A stretch of 64,000 nucleotides of DNA from Streptomyces sp. TLI_105 (GTDB lineage Bacteria > Actinomycetota > Actinomycetes > Streptomycetales > Streptomycetaceae). A model generated the notes under the pieces. That model was given only the letters and a program-made list of their open reading frames with translations. It was not told where the DNA came from and ran no database searches. Shown here piece by piece: positions 23,976 to 40,420 of this stretch. Where the stretch lies: NCBI RefSeq assembly GCF_900105415.1, contig NZ_FNSM01000001.1, forward strand, positions 7,324,001 through 7,388,000, given 5' to 3'. Numbering within the stretch: the first letter of the stretch is position 1; every line of letters starts with the position of its first letter. A program made the translations under genes and the position numbers.

Positions 23976-24809
23976 ATGCCCCCTTCGCTGGAACAGCAGC
24001 GGGACCGTCAGGCCCAGCATCGCCTGGCGGTCCTGCGCCACGCCGAGGAAGTCACCGGAAACGTCGCGCTGACCTGCCGCTACTACGGCATCAGCCGCAC
24101 GTGCTTCTACAAATGGCTGCGCCGGTATCAGGACGAGGGCCTCGAGGGCCTGCGGGACCGCTCCAGCAAGCCTCACCACTGCCCGCACGCCACCGAGGCC
24201 GACGTCATCAACAAGATCGTCTACCTGCGGCAGCACTACCACTTCGGCCCGATGAAGATCAAGATGTACCTGAAGCGGTACCACGACATCGACATCGCCT
24301 GCTCAGCCGTCTACCGCATCCTCAAGAAGCTCGGCATGAACCGCCTGCCGGCCTCCCAACGCTACCAACGGCACGACAAGCGCTATACCCGCTACGAGAA
24401 GCAGCTGCCCGGCAACCGCGTCCAGATCGACGTGAAGTTCATCGAACCGATCGGCCTGCCGGAGCAGACCGCGGCCGCGGCGCCGGTCACCGGCACCCTG
24501 CCCAAGCGGCGCCGCCGGGCGAAGTACTACCAGTTCACCGCCATCGACGACTGCACCCGGCTGCGCGTGCTGCGGATCTACCCGCGATGCGACCAGAAGA
24601 CCGCAGTCCAGTTCGTCGAACGCTCCCACCGCATCGACGCGGAGGAGTTCTACCGCATGCTCGACGGCATCCTCATCGACGACACCGGCGTCTTCAACGA
24701 CAAGCTGAGAAAGTGGGAGGACTACTACAACTACCACCGCCCCCACGGCGCCCTCGGCGGCCAGACACCCTACGAACGCCTCAAGCAGAAGACCCAGACC
24801 CCGCTGTAA
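23976..24809 (+). pseudogene. IS481-family transposase with in-frame internal deletion
   Basis: The frame is open over 277 codons. An N-terminal HTH (VALTCRYYGISRTCFYKWLRRYQDEG) is followed by the core with first catalytic Asp (NRVQIDVKFIEP, YYQFTAIDDCTR). The sequence then jumps from KTAVQFV straight to ERSHRIDAEEFYRMLDG. Family members have about 45-50 residues there, including the second catalytic Asp (QTDNGAEF). The deletion keeps frame but removes an active-site residue, so the protein cannot transpose. ATG 23976 has GGAG upstream. A terminal-repeat-like sequence near 23919-23955 precedes it. Confidence 0.8.
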
Positions 24810-30169: not shown

Positions 30170-30613
30170 GTGTCGGAGAACGGGACGGACGATGTGATCG
30201 ACGGCGTGGTGCAGGAAGAGCAGCCGGTGACACGGTTGCCCGAGGCCCTCGTCAGGGAGATGAACCGTGAGATCCGGCGCTGGCGCGTCGCCACCTTCAA
30301 CTACGGTCTCGCGTACTACCTGAGCCGGATCCTGTTGATCCTGGCCAGCGCCGTCGTGGCCGCCGACCAGAACCTGAGCGGTGGCCACGGGAACTGGCTG
30401 ATCACCTGGGTCCCGGCGCTGGCTCTGATCGTCGCCGTGATGACCGCGGTGGACACCTGGCTGAAGCCCCAGCAGAAGTGGCGCGGGTTCATGGAGTCCC
30501 GCGACGCCCTGGTCGATCTGATGATCCAGGCCGACGGGGGACTGCCGGCCGACCAAGTGCGGGCCAAGCTCCTGAAGCTGCGTCAGCAGCACCGGGAACG
30601 GAACGTCTTCTGA
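30170..30613 (+). CDS. two-TM protein, SLATT/DUF4231-like
   Basis: The 147 residues have a soluble acidic N-terminus (1-40), two hydrophobic helices (about 46-65, LAYYLSRILLILASAVVAA; about 77-97, LITWVPALALIVAVMTAVDTWL) and a charged C-terminal helix (KPQQKWRGFMESRDALVDL). Two close TM helices followed by a W/R-rich helix is the layout of SLATT and DUF4231 proteins, which are proposed pore-forming effectors in nucleotide- or protease-controlled conflict systems. GTG 30170 has GGAAGG upstream. It converges on the Nudix-like gene with a 34-base gap and lies close to the caspase-NTPase operon. The family call is tentative. Confidence 0.6.
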   Translation: MSENGTDDVIDGVVQEEQPVTRLPEALVREMNREIRRWRVATFNYGLAYYLSRILLILASAVVAADQNLSGGHGNWLITWVPALALIVAVMTAVDTWLKPQQKWRGFMESRDALVDLMIQADGGLPADQVRAKLLKLRQQHRERNVF

Positions 30614-30647: not shown

Positions 30648-31667
30648 TCAGCCGGCCTCCTTGAGCCGCCGCAGCGCACGGCGTTCGGCGGCCTCGACGT
30701 CCAGCCGGCCCGACGGGGAGCCCCCGCGGGCGATGACGGAGGCCCGGACCAGGGAGAGGTAGAAGAGCGCGGGGGCGCACGGTGTCCAGGTCTTCTCGGG
30801 ATCCTCGTCCAGGAGGAAATCGAGCACACTGTCGGGATCGGCCGGGACGAAGCTGAACCGGTCGTGCTCCCACTTGTCTTCGATGCCCCGGCTGCGGCGG
30901 GCGACGAGGTCCGCGGAGCTGAGGTCGGTGAGCACCGCGCGGTAGAAAGCCGCCCACTGGTGGTTACGCAGGTCGAGGGCGAAGGCGAGCAGTTCCAGCT
31001 CGACGGCGTCCTCGTCCTGGACGGCCAGTTCCTCGCGGAGCGCGCGCCGCGCCACGGCCTTGAGACTGATGGGCCTGCCATCCGCCGGGACGTCGTGGAT
31101 GGCGGCGAGCCCTTCGTTGACCGACGAGTTCCAGCGCTGCTTGTTCTGGCCCTCGACCTGGATGCTCCTTCGGGCGAAGACCATCTTCCCGTCGAGGCCG
31201 GTCTCGACGGCGACGTTGACGCCGAAGCTGCAGGAGAGGAAGGAGGGGGCCTCCACCGGGTCGGAGTTCGTCAGGTACTGCGAACGCAGCGTGGCGGAGG
31301 AGTCCCCCTCGTCCAGGGGCCTGTCCAGGTTGATGGAGGTGGCAAGGAAGTCGTAGTAGTCCGCGTCGCACAGGCTGATCCGCACCTGGGGCTCTTCGGT
31401 CTCGTCGGTACGGGAGGAGACGACGCTCTCCACGGCGAAGCGGGGGTTGTTCCACGCGAAGCGCTCTCCGACCGCCTGCTTGCGCTTCTGTTCCGCCTCG
31501 ATCTCATGGCGCCACTGCTGGACCTTCACCGGTAGGTCCACCCGGCGGAGGCCGGGCTCGTAAATGATGGTGACGTTCTCCTCCCGGATCGGACGCGTGC
31601 CGTCCCCCTCGAAGATGTGGCAGTCCGTCTCCGTCTCCCCGATGATGAACGCGTCGCGCTGATTCAT
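30648..31667 (-). CDS. Nudix-like protein divergent from the caspase-NTPase operon
   Basis: The 339 residues start [19 protein letters not shown] with GAGGGG before the ATG. The first 90 residues are charged and partly helical ([24 protein letters not shown]). The second half has [21 protein letters not shown] followed by [14 protein letters not shown], which resembles a Nudix helix. The canonical RE before the variable residue is changed (RRALREEL), so catalysis is doubtful and a nucleotide-binding sensor role is possible. Its 5' end faces the caspase-NTPase start with only 58 bases between them, so the two are probably co-regulated. I am not sure of the family. Confidence 0.5.
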
Positions 31668-31725
31668 GAGGTCCCCTCACCTGACGTCCAGTAGTGTGAC
31701 CCGGCACACTCGATCCTCGGATGCG
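31668..31725. promoter_or_regulatory. shared divergent promoter region
   Basis: Fifty-eight bases separate the Nudix-like ATG (minus) from the chosen caspase-NTPase ATG (plus). Both promoters must lie here or inside the genes. GTGTGACCCGGCACAC (31694-31709) contains the inverted repeat GTGTG/CACAC and could be an operator. No standard -35/-10 pair is clear. Confidence 0.4.
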
Positions 31726-34700
31726 ATGTCAGGTTGCCACAAACCGAGCCGCCTTCGGGCAGGGGGCGTGGATCAACTCTGGGGGGAATTCCTGTTGGAG
31801 CACTTACAGGGGCGCGACGGACTGGTCGCCACGGTGGTCGTCGACCGGTATCGCGGAGACGAGCGGGGAGTCAGGGACCGCCCTCTTCTGAGGGGAACGG
31901 CCGCACGCTTCGTCGAACAGATGCGGCGCCTCGGATTCAACCTGCCCGCGCAGGTCCTGACGAGTACGGACGGAGCGCCGCCCCCCTCTGCGGGGCGCGA
32001 ACGGATCCACGCGTTCGTGGCGCGGCTCCGCCAGCAGGCGGCAAGACGGAAGGTCCTCTACTGGACGGGTCACGGCGAGGTCGTGGGGGACACCTTCTAC
32101 CTGGCCTGCGAGGACAGTTACGAGGAGGGACGGTTCGACCCCCGCCGGGCCGTGACCGCTGAGGAACTGGTCGCCTGGCTCGCCGAGGACGCCACGGACA
32201 CCTTGCTCGTCCTGGACGCGTGCTTCGCGGGGGAAGCGATACGGGCGGTGCGGGACAGGGTGGAGGACGTCCGGGGGCGGGCCCCGGGCCCCCGCACCGG
32301 GTTCGCCGTCGTCGCCACCGCCGAGTCCCGGCAGAAGGCCGTGGAAGGCCACTTCGTGGACTGTCTGGAGCAGGTGCTCTCGAACCCCGCCTTCCTCGTC
32401 CGCGAGAGCGAGCGGATCTTCTCCCGGGAGCGGCCCGCGGTCTTCTTCCAGCACCTCATGCTGGGCGTGGCGGACCGGATGGAGGAGCAGGCCCTTGACT
32501 GGCGCGAAGTGCACACCCTGGACCCCGCGTTCCTGGCCAACCCCTACTGTTCCCGACCCGGCGCCGCCCTGCGGTCGGAGGACGACGAGTCCTGGATCGG
32601 ACGGGAGTTCCCGCACGACGAACTGCCGGTGTTCTCCGACTCGGGCGACAGGTGGCACCTGCGGGACTTCGCGGAACGGCAGCACGCCGTCACCGAGGTG
32701 GTCGACTGGCTGCGCACCCGGGAGACCGGGATGTACACGATCACGGGGGCGTCGGGAGCGGGCAAGTCCACCCTGCTGTCCTACGTGGCGCACCTGACGG
32801 ACGAGAACTTCGTGGCCACCCTGGCCGAGGACCGCCGGCCGCGGAACCTGCCCGAACTGCGCTCGGTGAACGCGGCGGTCCACTGCCGGGGAAAGACCCT
32901 CTCCGCCCTCTGCCACGAACTGACGGAGCGCCTGCGCTCGCTGGGGCTCGGGAACACCGGAGCCGAACGGCCGTCACCATCCGCGTGTGTGGAGGAGATC
33001 GAGCGGCTCGCCGCACGCAAGGGCATCCTCACCCTGCTGTTCGACGGACTGGACGAGGCGGCGGCCGGTCACTCCTTCGACATCGCGAGAAGCCTGCTCA
33101 ATCCGCTCGCGGCCCGGCCGCGCGTGCGGGTCGTGGTCGCTACCCGCCCGAACTCCCGCCGCAACCTCCCAGGCGATCCGTCTGCCGAGTCTCTGCTGGA
33201 TGTCCTCCACTGCGTACAGCCGCTGGAGCTGGACCGGTCAGCCGGGGTCGAGCAGGACATCACCCGCCACGTCGAACGCCTCCTGGGGGAGGCGAACTCC
33301 CCCTATAACCTGCTGCCGGACGCGGTGCAGACCCGTGGTGCTGTTGCCCGGTACATCGCGGCCCGCAGCAACGGCCTCTTCCTCGTGGCCACCCTGTGGG
33401 CGCGCCGCCTCGTCCTCCTGCCCGAAGCAGTCGCGGAGCACCGGCTCGACCGGGAACTCCGCCCCGGCACGGCCGTCCTCGATCTCCTGCTCGCGGAGGA
33501 GCTCGACCGGATCGATCCGCAGGACCCCGGACGGGTCAGGGACTTCATGCGGGGCCTCGCGCTCGCGCAGGGCGTCGGGCTCCCCCAACCGGAAGTGTGG
33601 CTCGCCGTGACCAACGCGGTGCGGACCCCGGGCGGCAGGGAGTACGACCACGGGGATCTGCTGGACGTGGTCCGCAGGACCACCGGCGTGACGATCGCGG
33701 AGGACGACGAGTTCGGCACGCCGGTCTACCGCCTCCACCACCCCAGCTTCGGCGCGCACCTGCTGCACGGGGAGGCGGAGGTGAGACGTCGACACAGGGC
33801 CGTGGTCCGCGCCCTGACCCCCGGGTCACCCACGGACTGGCAGGGGGCGGAGCCCTACGTCATCCACTACCTGGCGGCGCACGCGGCCCTGGCCGGTGAC
33901 GACGTCCTCGACGAACTGGTGGCCGACCACCACTTCCTGGTGGCCACCGCGCCCGACGTCCTGGAACCGCTGGTCGCCGCCCGGTCGGCGACGACCCCCC
34001 AGAGCACGCTGTATCTGCGCGTGGCCGACGACTTCCGCGGGAACCCGTCTCCGGCAGGACGGTGGGCGGTGCTGCGAGCCACCGCCCTGGCGATGTTCTC
34101 CGCCGAATTCCTGCAGGACGTACCGCGACCGCCGTCCGTGTTCTGGGAAGACGTGTGGAGCAGCGCCGAACGGCTCCCGCTGCGGCGGAGCCGGCCGGCC
34201 CCCTCGGGCGGTGCGTTGGCGGTGCACTGGGAGGAGGGCGACGGGACCGTCCACGTGGCTGGCGCCGGCGAGATCGTCTCGTGGACCGCGGACGGGCACC
34301 GGACGCTGACCAGGAACACGGGCCCGGCCACCTGGTCATCACCTCCCCAACAGCGGGGCCTCACGGTGTCGGGACAGGGCGAGAGCCGGGTGATCGCGAC
34401 CCACGACAGCCAGTGCGTGCGGATCTGGCAGGGCGGTGGCAAGCACCCGGTCGAGGAGCTGCACTGGGGAGGGAAGACCAACGCCGTCGACTCGGTGTGC
34501 AACGGCCGGGACGTCTTCCTCGCCGTGGCTGACGGCATCGGCCTGTGGGTATGGCGGTGGGACAGCTCCTCGGCCTACGTCCGGGGCCGGATCAGACAGC
34601 CGCTCCACGCCCCCGGGCAGGTGAACTGCGTGGCGGCGGTCGTCCGCGACGGGCGCGTCGGCGTGCTCACGGGCGGGCCCGGGGGAGTGACCGTGCGGGA

Positions 34701-36210
34701 GGTGCGGGGACTCAGGCTGGGAAGGCCCGGACTCGAACACATGCGTTCCCTGACCGACGGCGCCGAAGTGATCGGCTCGCTGGCGGTGATGGCCACCGGG
34801 GAGGGTGCCGGGGCCGTGGTCGCGGCCCTTGACGGCCACACCCTCCGTGTCTGGCACATGGAGGACCTCTTCCATGGTGAGGCGGAACTGCGGTTCCGCG
34901 CCCGTACCGCGGGCCAGGTCGTGGCCCTCGGGCACGGCCCGTACGGCGTGCTGACCGCCGTACAGGAGAACACCCAGGCGCAGGTGTGGGACGAGTCGGG
35001 CAGGGAGCACGTGCCCCTGCCGTGCGACCACGGGCACAAGTCCCTGGCCTTCGACCCCTCGGGGAGCGGACGCCTCGCGGTCGCGGACGACACCCGGCTC
35101 CAGATCTGGGAGCCGCACACCCCCTTCGGAGCCGGGGGGACCGCCCGGGAACCCGTCAGGGGCCGCCTGGCCGAAAAGCCGCAGTTGCGGATGGCGCAGA
35201 GCTCCGACGGCACCATGCTCCTCGCCCGCTCGCAGGGCTCCGACGTACTGACGAGCCTGCACACTGCGGCCGGCCGGATCGTCGGCGGGCCGCGGCTCCC
35301 GCACCCGCACCAGGTGAGCGCGCTCGCCGTCACGAAGGCCGGTGACGGCTGGAAGGTCGTAGCGGCCGGGTACCGGCACGTGCTGCTGTGGAGCCTCGGG
35401 CCCGGTCTCGAACTCCTGGACACGGAGGAGTTCGACCTGCCGGGCGCGTACGACGTGGCGGCGTCCTCCCTCGACGTCTCCGTCACGGAGGAGGGCCGGA
35501 CGCGCCTGATGTGGCCGTCCGGGCAGGAGGTCATCACGTGGGAGCGCGAGGGCCTCAGACGCGGCCCGTGGCGGGAAGGCCACACCTTCGTCCTGAGGGC
35601 CTCGGGCACCGTGCAGAAGCTGGAGCGAGTGGGAGTGCCCGGCGGGCCGTCCTGGCTCTCCCTATGGGGTGGCGACGCGGCCCGGGTGTGGAACCTCGAC
35701 CGGCCGGACGCGCTGCCGGAACCGGTGCACTGCGCCGGGGCGAGGGCCGTCGCGACGGGAGTGCTCAGACGGGTCGTCCGGCCGGTTCCCCTGGTGGCCT
35801 ACGCGACGAAGTACACAGTGGAGATCGTCCGGTGCGACAGCGGCGATGGGGTGTCGACCTCGCTGCCCGAGCAGCCCGGCGAACCGCTCGACGGGCTCAC
35901 CTTCGCCGGACCGCCGGAGCTTCCCCTGCTCATCGGCTGGAGCCGGGGCTCCGGCCGCCTCCTGCTCTGGGACGTACGGCGGGAGCAGGCGCTGGAACCG
36001 ATGGAGTCCCGCGGTTACCCAGTGGCGAACGTCGACTCCGTCTACGACGGCCACCACATCACGCTGATGATCCAGGGCATCGCGCAGAAGAGCATCCGCT
36101 GCGACCAGGTGGCCCTGCCCTGGCGCGTCGAGGAAGACGCGCCAGCGCCCCGGGTCGGCAGACAGCGCGGGCCGGCTTCCGCCCCGAGAAGAGAGGAGAG
36201 CGTCTCGTGA
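31726..36210 (+). CDS. caspase-like protease / STAND (NACHT-type) ATPase / beta-propeller protein
   Basis: The protein has 1494 residues. Residues 30-260 form a caspase (C14) domain with catalytic His116 in YWTGHGE and Cys166 in LVLDACFAG. Residues 320-560 form a P-loop ATPase with Walker A GASGAGKST (341-349), Walker B LTLLFDGLDEA (Asp440) and VVVATRPNSRR. A helical region (about 560-800) and a long repetitive beta-rich part (about 830-1470) with WD40-like repeats follow (CVRIWQ, LRVWHMED, LQIWEP, VLLWSL, ARVWNLD, LLLWDV). This is the layout of NLR-like switches with a protease effector. The start is uncertain: ATG 31726 has no ribosome site and GTG 31768 is an alternative. The stop overlaps the hydrolase start. 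Confidence 0.85.
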   Translation: MSGCHKPSRLRAGGVDQLWGEFLLEHLQGRDGLVATVVVDRYRGDERGVRDRPLLRGTAARFVEQMRRLGFNLPAQVLTSTDGAPPPSAGRERIHAFVARLRQQAARRKVLYWTGHGEVVGDTFYLACEDSYEEGRFDPRRAVTAEELVAWLAEDATDTLLVLDACFAGEAIRAVRDRVEDVRGRAPGPRTGFAVVATAESRQKAVEGHFVDCLEQVLSNPAFLVRESERIFSRERPAVFFQHLMLGVADRMEEQALDWREVHTLDPAFLANPYCSRPGAALRSEDDESWIGREFPHDELPVFSDSGDRWHLRDFAERQHAVTEVVDWLRTRETGMYTITGASGAGKSTLLSYVAHLTDENFVATLAEDRRPRNLPELRSVNAAVHCRGKTLSALCHELTERLRSLGLGNTGAERPSPSACVEEIERLAARKGILTLLFDGLDEAAAGHSFDIARSLLNPLAARPRVRVVVATRPNSRRNLPGDPSAESLLDVLHCVQPLELDRSAGVEQDITRHVERLLGEANSPYNLLPDAVQTRGAVARYIAARSNGLFLVATLWARRLVLLPEAVAEHRLDRELRPGTAVLDLLLAEELDRIDPQDPGRVRDFMRGLALAQGVGLPQPEVWLAVTNAVRTPGGREYDHGDLLDVVRRTTGVTIAEDDEFGTPVYRLHHPSFGAHLLHGEAEVRRRHRAVVRALTPGSPTDWQGAEPYVIHYLAAHAALAGDDVLDELVADHHFLVATAPDVLEPLVAARSATTPQSTLYLRVADDFRGNPSPAGRWAVLRATALAMFSAEFLQDVPRPPSVFWEDVWSSAERLPLRRSRPAPSGGALAVHWEEGDGTVHVAGAGEIVSWTADGHRTLTRNTGPATWSSPPQQRGLTVSGQGESRVIATHDSQCVRIWQGGGKHPVEELHWGGKTNAVDSVCNGRDVFLAVADGIGLWVWRWDSSSAYVRGRIRQPLHAPGQVNCVAAVVRDGRVGVLTGGPGGVTVREVRGLRLGRPGLEHMRSLTDGAEVIGSLAVMATGEGAGAVVAALDGHTLRVWHMEDLFHGEAELRFRARTAGQVVALGHGPYGVLTAVQENTQAQVWDESGREHVPLPCDHGHKSLAFDPSGSGRLAVADDTRLQIWEPHTPFGAGGTAREPVRGRLAEKPQLRMAQSSDGTMLLARSQGSDVLTSLHTAAGRIVGGPRLPHPHQVSALAVTKAGDGWKVVAAGYRHVLLWSLGPGLELLDTEEFDLPGAYDVAASSLDVSVTEEGRTRLMWPSGQEVITWEREGLRRGPWREGHTFVLRASGTVQKLERVGVPGGPSWLSLWGGDAARVWNLDRPDALPEPVHCAGARAVATGVLRRVVRPVPLVAYATKYTVEIVRCDSGDGVSTSLPEQPGEPLDGLTFAGPPELPLLIGWSRGSGRLLLWDVRREQALEPMESRGYPVANVDSVYDGHHITLMIQGIAQKSIRCDQVALPWRVEEDAPAPRVGRQRGPASAPRREESVS

Positions 36211-37589
36211 GGGACGACTTCGTCATCCTGGTCCCCGGCATCATGGGCACGGCCCTGACCCGGGACGGACTCGACGTCTGGGACCTGTCCCTCCAGACAC
36301 TCGGCGGCTTCCTCGGGCCGAGGAGGACGAAGGAGGTGCTCAGGCTCCAGGAGGGCATCGGGAACGCCGACCCGGAACCGCCCCACGCCCTGGACGTGGG
36401 GCGCGTGATCCCCAGCGCCCGCCTGCTGCCCGGCCTGGTCTCTGACACCGGCTTTGCCGGGCTCCGGCAGAGCCTCGGGCTCACGGAGGAGCAGTTCGCC
36501 GTCTTCCCGTACGACTGGCGCCTCAGCAACCGCAACACGGCCGCGAAGCTGGAGCGGTTCGTCGACGAGCGGCTGGAGCGCTGGCGGACGACGGCCGACC
36601 CGGGACTCCATCCGGGCGCGTGCGACGCGAAGGTGGTCTTCGTGTGCCGCTCGATGGGCGGCCTTGTCGTGCGGTACTACACCGAGGTTCTCGGCGGATG
36701 GAGGAACACCCGGTCGGTCACGACGCTGGGCACGCCCTACTCGGGGAGCGTGAAGGCGCTGCGGTTCCTGACCGGCCGGGCGCGTTGGGTACCCGGACCG
36801 CTCAACGAGTGGGTCCGCGAGGTCTGTTCGACGTACCCCTCGCTGGGGCAGCTGATCCCGACGTACCGGATGGTGCTCGACCCCAAGGAGGGCAGGACCG
36901 AACTCACCCATCGAGCGTCGGTCGAGGGCATCGACCTCCGGACGATCGAGGATTCGTTCGCCTTCTTCAAAGAGATCAAGACGGCTGTCCGAGTCAACGA
37001 CGAACAGTACGGACGGGACCGCTACGCCCTGCACGCCTTCGGCGGCGACAAGCACCGCACCGATCAGGCGGTGTCCTTCTCCGCGACGGGCAGGTTGACG
37101 TTCCACTCCGACTTCTCGGGATCCGCCGACCCCGACGACCGGTCCATCACGCCCCGTGGGGACGGCACGGTGGCGGCCTTCGCACAGATCCCGCCCGAGT
37201 GGGGCTCCCTGGGCCGTGCGCTGTGGCTGGACAGCAGGCACGCAGACCTCGTCAACGCCGAGGGGGCCGTCGAGCAACTCAGGCGCATCTGCCACGACAT
37301 GCCGCTCGCCCGGCTGCTCAGCTCCGACCACCCCGTCGGCGTGGAACTGCCCGACGTCGCCGTGGCAGGCGAGCCGTTCGAGGTGTGGGCGACGGACGCC
37401 GACGCGGCCATGCAGCTGCGGGTGCGCCGCGTGGCCGAGGACGGCACGCACGGGGAGGACGTGGAGATGGCACCGTGCGGTGACGGCGCCTTCCGTGCCG
37501 AGCTGCAGTCCGAGCCCGGGCGGTGGACGGTGGAGGTCTACTCGCCGACGACCACGTACGTGTGCCGGGACGTGGTCCTGGTCCTGTGA
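36207..37589 (+). CDS. LCAT/phospholipase-like alpha/beta hydrolase
   Basis: The 460 residues start FVILVPGIMGTAL (oxyanion loop), then FPYDWRLSNR and the nucleophile CRSMGG (Ser149, usual form GHSMGG). RGDGTVAA (Asp319) and DSRHADLV (His345) complete the triad, the same order as in lecithin:cholesterol acyltransferases and related bacterial lipases. A C-terminal beta-sandwich (about 360-460) is added. There is no signal peptide, so it acts inside the cell. GTG 36207 overlaps the caspase-NTPase stop by 4 bases, so the two are made together. The best reading is a membrane-lipid-attacking effector held inactive until released by the upstream protease/ATPase. Confidence 0.85.
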   Translation: MRDDFVILVPGIMGTALTRDGLDVWDLSLQTLGGFLGPRRTKEVLRLQEGIGNADPEPPHALDVGRVIPSARLLPGLVSDTGFAGLRQSLGLTEEQFAVFPYDWRLSNRNTAAKLERFVDERLERWRTTADPGLHPGACDAKVVFVCRSMGGLVVRYYTEVLGGWRNTRSVTTLGTPYSGSVKALRFLTGRARWVPGPLNEWVREVCSTYPSLGQLIPTYRMVLDPKEGRTELTHRASVEGIDLRTIEDSFAFFKEIKTAVRVNDEQYGRDRYALHAFGGDKHRTDQAVSFSATGRLTFHSDFSGSADPDDRSITPRGDGTVAAFAQIPPEWGSLGRALWLDSRHADLVNAEGAVEQLRRICHDMPLARLLSSDHPVGVELPDVAVAGEPFEVWATDADAAMQLRVRRVAEDGTHGEDVEMAPCGDGAFRAELQSEPGRWTVEVYSPTTTYVCRDVVLVL

Positions 37590-39279: not shown

Positions 39280-40113
39280 GTGCCTGCCGGCTCTTCCTCG
39301 CTCATCTCCGTCGGCTTGGGCCAACTCGCCTGTGTCGCCCCGGCGTCGCCCGCCGACCACCCAGGGCTCCTGGTCCGTCTGGCGACCGTTCCCGATCCAC
39401 GCCGTGCCCGGGGTCGGCGCCACCCGCTGGTCTTCGTCCTGGCCCTGGCTGCCTGCGCGGTCCTGGCCGGGGCCACGTCCCTGGTGGCCATCGCGGAGTG
39501 GGCCGCCGACGCCCCGCCCGAACTGCTGACCCGCCTCGGCGGCACCTGCCGGGAACCGGACACCGGACCCGCCGCCCCGGCCGAGGCCACCGTGCGGCGC
39601 ATCCTGCAGCGCATCGACGGCGACGCACTGGACACGGCGATCGGCGCCTGGCTCGCGGACCGCGCCCGCCGTGCCGAGCACGGCCAGGCGGAGGCGGCCG
39701 CTCCCGCGCTTGCCGTGGACGGCAAGACCGTGCGGGGCGCCTGGCGCGCCGACGGCACCCAGGTCCACCTGCTGGCCGCGATGAGCGGCCGCGGCCTGGT
39801 CCCTGCCCAGCGTGAAGTCGACGCGAAGACCAACGAAATCACCGTCTTTCGGCCCCTGCTCCAACCGCTGGACCTGGCCGGCTGGGTGGTCACCTTCGAC
39901 GCGCTGCACAGCCAGGTCGAGCACGCCCGCTTCCTGGTGGAGGACGAGCAGGCGCACTACATCGCGGTGATCAAGGGCAACCAGCCAACCCTGCACCGGA
40001 TGCTGAAGAACCTGCCCTGGCGGGACATGCCGCTGTTGGACAAGACCCGCGCCACCGCCCACGGCCGCGACGAGACCCGGCGCATGAAGACCGCCACCAC
40101 AGCCAAGATCCCT
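39280..40113 (+). pseudogene. ISAs1-family transposase, C-terminally truncated
   Basis: Residues 1-278 match ISAs1: VRLATVPDPRRARGRRHPL, AEATVRRILQRIDGDALD, LAVDGKTVRGA (first Asp), NEITVFRPLLQPLDLAGWVVTFDALHSQ (second Asp) and YIAVIKGNQPTL. After TATTAKIP the frame stays open but the sequence is no longer transposase, and the last catalytic Glu region is missing. The element was cut at its 3' end. Confidence 0.8.
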
Positions 40114-40420
40114 TGCGGGCGGGCACTGGTGCGTCGTCGGAGCAGGTGGATCGCGACCTCTCGTACCGCTCAAGATGAGTGGCGTCAGCGCCGATCCTGC
40201 GCGAACAGGGAGCCGGGCAGCCGTTTGACCTGGTGCTTGTCCATTCACCTTGGCTCTGTGGCCCCTGCTGCACTCGAGCGTGCGGGACGGTCGGGCCCGA
40301 CCGTCAGGACATTCCCGATGAGTCGGAGGAGCATCTAATGCTGTGAGGCCGGTACGGCGCGCGACGCCGCCGGTGGGCGAGAGGCGGCGCACGTCGGTCG
40401 GCCGTGAGGAGGAGGCGGCC
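40114..40420. other. region between ISAs1 remnant and corA
   Basis: No gene recognised; the ISAs1 frame continues as unrelated sequence. The corA promoter should lie in the last 100 bases, and GAGGAGGAGG before ATG 40421 is a strong ribosome site. Confidence 0.4.

Follow-up and report, generated by a model that had tools for sequence, protein, structure and literature searches.

The stretch of DNA considered here, the window, comprises 64,000 nucleotides of the 8.9 Mb genome of Streptomyces sp. TLI_105 (contig NZ_FNSM01000001.1, positions 7,324,001 to 7,388,000). Within it a gene encoding a caspase domain fused to a NACHT-type STAND ATPase and a propeller region is followed, with an overlap of four bases, by a gene for an LCAT/LPLA2-like alpha/beta hydrolase. 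The pairing of such a hydrolase with a caspase-STAND protein is a genuine and widely kept module: the two adjoin in 72 of 101 Streptomyces loci, and their evolutionary coupling, like the domains, folds and catalytic residues themselves, is a matter of observation. An earlier, sequence-only reading of the window was right about the overlap, and the check that it had named beforehand, co-occurrence of the two genes in other genomes, came out in its favour. It had also supposed a fixed 1:1 coupling, and this does not hold: gene order varies, and CHAT or transglutaminase-like proteins can replace the caspase. The features of the pair are as follows.

31795..36210, forward strand: caspase-NACHT(STAND)-propeller gene, probably starting with the TTG at 31795
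31819..32565, forward strand: caspase-fold domain, residues 52-300 in the longest reading
32071..32073, forward strand: codon of catalytic His136, invariant
32221..32223, forward strand: codon of catalytic Cys186, invariant, with Asp184 preceding it
32695..33189, forward strand: NACHT/STAND ATPase region, residues 344-508, with Walker A at 361-368 and Walker B at 457-465
34198..36105, forward strand: degenerate beta-propeller region, presumed sensor
36207..37589, forward strand: LCAT/LPLA2-like alpha/beta hydrolase gene, GTG start
36651..36653, forward strand: codon of Ser149, the nucleophile of the hydrolase triad
37161..37163, forward strand: codon of Asp319 of the triad
37239..37241, forward strand: codon of His345 of the triad
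37338..37586, forward strand: C-terminal Ig/filamin-like beta-sandwich, residues 378-460, from strands of the model

Pairing in Streptomyces and beyond

How often are the two genes found together? The hydrolase profile matches 84 of 392 Streptomyces genomes, in 107 places; these numbers, like those of the caspase and phylum-wide scans below, are lower bounds because the scans scored only the best four first-look candidates per genome. Six partial hydrolase matches among the 107 were left out; the 100 places retrieved, with some 9.5 kb of flanking sequence on either side as far as the contig reached, make 101 loci with the window. Among the 72 with an adjoining caspase-STAND gene the hydrolase comes first in 31, the protease comes first in 21, and the genes are divergent in 20 and convergent in none; a fixed operon order is rejected, as three arrangements occur. 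A CHAT protein stands beside the hydrolase in five loci and a transglutaminase-like STAND protein in a further five, the latter recognised with Pfam in L122 (E 1.2e-4) and L119 (E 0.003), and by eye from the sequence in L109, L123 and L125. In four (L137, L149, L154 and L158) the hydrolase is fused in frame behind another protein, with an AAA/STAND region in all of these except L137, where none was recognised. What remains is two loci cut by contig ends, 12 without a recognised partner, and one, L070, in which a partner fragment lies at the contig end and which for that reason was manually placed with the protease-first loci, instead of under 'none', ahead of the tree. In L154, the sole fused locus so scanned, an EAD1-trypsin gene, an EAD1-ATPase gene and the STAND-hydrolase fusion lie in series (L154:3835-10252).

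On the hydrolase tree all the classes together require 17 changes, compared with a mean of 60 after shuffling, and the CHAT members form one group, as do the fused members. The three gene orders require 6, 5 and 4 changes, at least four in each case being forced by well-supported branches. Distances among hydrolases and among their partners correlate at 0.835 over 70 pairs, a value as high being reached in none of 2000 permutations, and at 0.94-0.96 inside each gene order, with shared species history included in the correlation.

A scan of named species genomes was carried to its best 80 loci, to which the following counts refer. They split into 38 at 200 bits or more to the hydrolase family and 42 below 145, with none between. 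With the same hidden Markov models, a cysteine-protease neighbour was found for 30 of the 38 family members versus 2 of the 42 low-scoring LCAT-like proteins, the latter a control drawn mostly from distant metagenome-assembled genomes (MAGs) where the models for partners may have a lower sensitivity. The 30 neighbours consist of 24 caspases (they occur in Nocardia, Lentzea, Actinoplanes and one Blastocatellia MAG), five transglutaminase-like proteins (three cyanobacterial records, Lentzea and Actinomadura) and one CHAT protein. A later Pfam scan, covering the family group and not the low-scoring 42, added CHAT at two further loci, L256 of Solirubrobacter and L259 of Mesorhizobium; L257 has a STAND gene neighbour without a recognised protease. 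Four of the 38 have long exact stretches in common with loci already counted.

What is seen when the caspase-STAND gene is the starting point? Of 79 caspase rows scanned, 78 were compared with hydrolase rows (one G198 fragment row was dropped), and at 50 of these 78 places an LCAT-like hydrolase lies within 6 kb. From the remaining 28, 20 were retrieved, and in 14 (L233, L234, L236-L240, L242, L243, L246, L247 and L249-L251) the caspase gene is adjoined by another alpha/beta hydrolase, a short one of some 300 residues whose motif is of the AHSLGS or GHSLGS type. This hydrolase does not adjoin the caspase gene in the other six; the model for it was built from eight of the 20 neighbours and then matched six more. 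Because 14 of the 20 carry the short hydrolase, the rule of a caspase accompanied by an alpha/beta hydrolase holds across two different hydrolase families.

The two proteins and the genes around them

Alternatives to the probable start of the caspase-NACHT gene are the GTG at 31768 in the database record and that of the longest frame, 31666-36210. The His116 and Cys166 picked out by the sequence-only reading are, with its shifted start, His136 and Cys186 of the longest frame; they were correctly chosen, and the dyad does not vary in any of 21 homologues or in any of the 71 partners. No Pfam family matched the N-terminus of the window caspase. NCBIfam NF047832 matched the caspase domain at E 4.6e-9 and 36.1 bits, under its cut-off of 140, and a broad caspase alignment gave, in a PDB profile search, weak matches to caspase-1 and metacaspase-4 (E 0.06-0.07). 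On the strength of fold and dyad the domain is assigned to the caspase (C14) superfamily. The ATPase region is above cut-off both as NACHT (29.6 bits, cut-off 26.7) and as AAA_22 (33.6 bits, cut-off 27), and with the Walker A and B motifs and the caspase fold it bears out the combination of caspase and ATPase that had been read earlier. The Walker Lys and Asp were scored as invariant. When the 71 STAND partners are aligned, no column except those of the caspase His and Cys is without variation. The long beta-propeller that had been proposed is annotated in relatives, but is sub-threshold in the window protein.

On Pfam score, triad and fold alike the hydrolase belongs to the LCAT/LPLA2-like family (PF02450), and its Ser149-Asp319-His345 triad is intact, as had been claimed; by analogy with known families, phospholipase-type chemistry would be expected of it. 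Foldseek matched its C-terminal domain to filamin domains at E 2.6e-4 to 9.6e-4. An alignment of 140 rows was made from the 101 Streptomyces loci, the 38 named-genome loci and, again, the window hydrolase as reference; with the window so counted twice, the triad is intact in 130, because of which catalysis is taken to have been selected in most lineages. Among the exceptions L105, L107 and L111 are unpaired and lack the Ser, in the fused L149 Tyr replaces His, and L279 has a gap at that position. L105 and L107 adjoin pyruvate dehydrogenase genes. Named homologues of the caspase and hydrolase proteins are mostly from Streptomyces, and a single-sequence scan of genome contigs with window protein P0002 yielded no relatives.

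Two further genes, the first of them overlooked by the sequence-only reading, lie close by.

30648..31667, reverse strand: divergent gene of 339 amino acids, head-to-head with the caspase gene, with a half-matching Nudix-box-like stretch
30170..30613, forward strand: DUF4231-like gene of 147 amino acids, possibly for a small membrane protein

Among 160 fetched loci, 17 have a relative of the former head-to-head with their caspase gene; in the well-supported clade of the window this is so for 18 of 21 members, the window included, and the remaining three are truncated by contig ends. One part of the gene is like the latter half of a Nudix box; the gene matched nothing in Pfam or in a PDB profile search, and a Nudix identity is supported by neither. 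Six more of the fetched loci (L062-L066 and L084) also have the DUF4231-like gene next to the module. Transposase/integrase-type genes flank the module at 23976-24809 and 39280-40338 of the window.

A candidate mechanism and its rivals

What might such a pair do? The reading that we favour, tentatively and with confidence a little short of even, is of an NLR-like protease-hydrolase module in which a sensor, via NACHT assembly and a caspase, leads to membrane damage driven by the hydrolase. At rest the caspase-NACHT-propeller protein would be an inactive sensor, with the propeller region recognising the trigger. From what is known of related families, ATP-dependent NACHT assembly would gather the caspase domains and so activate them. 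The active caspase may then act on the co-encoded hydrolase, in the simplest case by cutting it or by releasing it from an inhibited state, and the LPLA2/LCAT-like acyl hydrolase would deacylate membrane lipids, with the result that the cell, or a single hyphal compartment, dies or stops growing. The logic would be like that of gasdermin with an enzyme replacing the pore. That the hydrolase is cleaved, that lipid is its substrate, what the trigger is, and a role in phage defence we purely infer.

NLR-like ATPases with a caspase fused to them are often found in multicellular bacteria, and to our knowledge few of their targets have been identified. Because its place beside the protease is conserved through changes of gene order and swaps of protease, the hydrolase is a concrete candidate target for the caspase. 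If the protease switches on a phospholipase, there would be a bacterial NLR-caspase-phospholipase death pathway parallel to pyroptosis, and a direct test of what bacterial caspases cut would need no more than two proteins and two point mutants. Wider in scope, and more doubtful, is the possibility of a widespread undescribed immune module, an enzymatic counterpart of gasdermin across actinobacteria, cyanobacteria and acidobacteria. In it the LPLA2-like hydrolase would be the constant part, the activating cysteine protease could be swapped among caspase-STAND, CHAT and transglutaminase-like STAND proteins, fused forms would occur next to EAD1-trypsin, and a clade of dead lipases would reveal a second, non-catalytic role.

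Several observations weigh against the proposed mechanism. No conserved cleavage site was seen in the hydrolase, the linker before the Ig-like domain having no invariant basic residue; a basic residue does occur in the low-confidence loop 26-48 in 26 of 26 aligned hydrolases, but it is not position-specific and proves nothing. PADLOC 2023 gave four weak matches (E 0.02-0.06) for the ATPase region of the caspase protein and none for the hydrolase, and none of the scanned window neighbours was recognised as a known defence gene. The pair is patchy in Streptomyces, with its 84 of 392 genomes, and a phylum-wide sample at the same strict cut-off has it in 4 of 396, three of these being of the same genus and one an incomplete MAG. 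At L232:11220-12998 a close caspase-NACHT relative (39% identity, within the 37-40% class) has no detectable alpha/beta hydrolase beside it and is followed by an amidohydrolase gene. Finally, five paired hydrolases of one clade (L110 and L112-L115) have Ala or Gly in place of Ser and Asn or Asp in place of His, and the caspase dyads of their partners are intact. With both Ser and His lost there, hydrolysis has been given up in at least one lineage that still has the pair, and the clade counts against a purely catalytic role and a simple 'lipase as executioner' scheme.

Is the hydrolase-fold protein then mainly a non-catalytic partner, whether substrate, inhibitor, membrane anchor or co-sensor, with the protease as the executioner? 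Those five hydrolases speak for it, as does the unrelated-looking short hydrolase that takes up this place next to the caspase-STAND gene in 14 of the 20 loci fetched without the LCAT-like one; the intact triad of 130 of 140 rows tells against it, and we think it unlikely. That caspase and hydrolase are parallel effectors under one sensor, the protease leaving the hydrolase alone, is also rather unlikely. The four in-frame fusions, of which L149, L154 and L158 have AAA/STAND regions, do look like an effector wired to an NTPase, and the fused L154 adjoins an EAD1-trypsin gene, yet elsewhere what regularly adjoins the hydrolase is a protease and not just any effector, and it is the protease type that changes and the hydrolase family that stays.

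Occurrence in filamentous actinobacteria, cyanobacteria and Blastocatellia would suit a module not for defence but for development, programmed hyphal death or lipid remodelling in multicellular bacteria, and such systems have been tied to the multicellular habit in earlier work (PMC7159879, in the sections drawn on here). However, a distribution as patchy as that in Streptomyces is unlike that of a core developmental gene, and transposase-type genes are in the same window; we regard this alternative as quite improbable. Hardly credible at all is a chance neighbourhood of two unrelated genes. The 12 of 101 hydrolase loci without a recognised partner can be cited for it, but the tree and distance results and the 30 of 38 versus 2 of 42 stand against it, and as a general explanation it is refuted by the 72 paired loci among 101 and by the contrast with the 2 of 42.

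Relation to known systems

In bacterial gasdermin and CARD-NLR systems a membrane effector is presumably turned on by a protease that an NLR-like ATPase controls. The present locus differs from these in its candidate effector, which is an LPLA2-like hydrolase, and in its protease, a caspase with NACHT in one and the same protein; general Pfam scans of the neighbours, in which no dedicated gasdermin profile was run, recognised neither gasdermin nor CARD. According to excerpts of one report, phospholipases substitute for gasdermins in some CARD-NLR systems (PMC13236601).

For the hydrolase itself the close known systems are lysosomal phospholipase A2, LCAT and the type VI secretion system effector Tle4, from which it differs in having an extra C-terminal Ig/filamin-like domain and no apparent secretion leader (none was predicted by a tool). 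The caspase domain has a weak likeness to that of the two-gene EACC1-caspase systems (Kaur et al. 2020, System 4; NF047832). Those have a 5′ EACC1 gene, whereas the second gene of the window pair is the hydrolase; no Pfam match to EACC1 was seen among the scanned neighbours, no dedicated EACC1 model having been run.

The sequence-only reading knew of no characterised system with exactly this pair. No paper on a caspase-STAND/LCAT-like pair was found in the open literature, with most subscription papers outside the search and absence so unproven, but the principle of the pairing has been published for VMAP. According to the relevant part of Kaur et al. 2020 (eLife, PMC7159879), a caspase domain in a VMAP protein is invariably accompanied by an alpha/beta hydrolase gene next to it, the two probably act in concert, and related hydrolases are present in GAP1-N1 systems; a 2021 follow-up, again in part, counts alpha/beta hydrolases among effectors (PMC8195603). 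A caspase with a neighbouring alpha/beta hydrolase is thus, on what those passages give, common to the ternary MoxR-vWA-VMAP systems and to the present locus. Unlike in VMAP systems, the window caspase is fused to NACHT and a propeller, and its hydrolase is LPLA2-like. VMAP, MoxR and vWA genes were not recognised among the scanned window neighbours, the sole VMAP-C match of the genome being far from the window at C1:2792005. In 39 VMAP loci fetched there is no LCAT-like hydrolase, and in three a hydrolase like the short family overlaps the VMAP genes. With no VMAP, MoxR or vWA gene recognised near the pair and none of those 39 loci having an LCAT-like hydrolase, membership of the VMAP systems is rejected, and the locus is a MoxR- and vWA-free variant of an already predicted theme, with an LPLA2-like enzyme.
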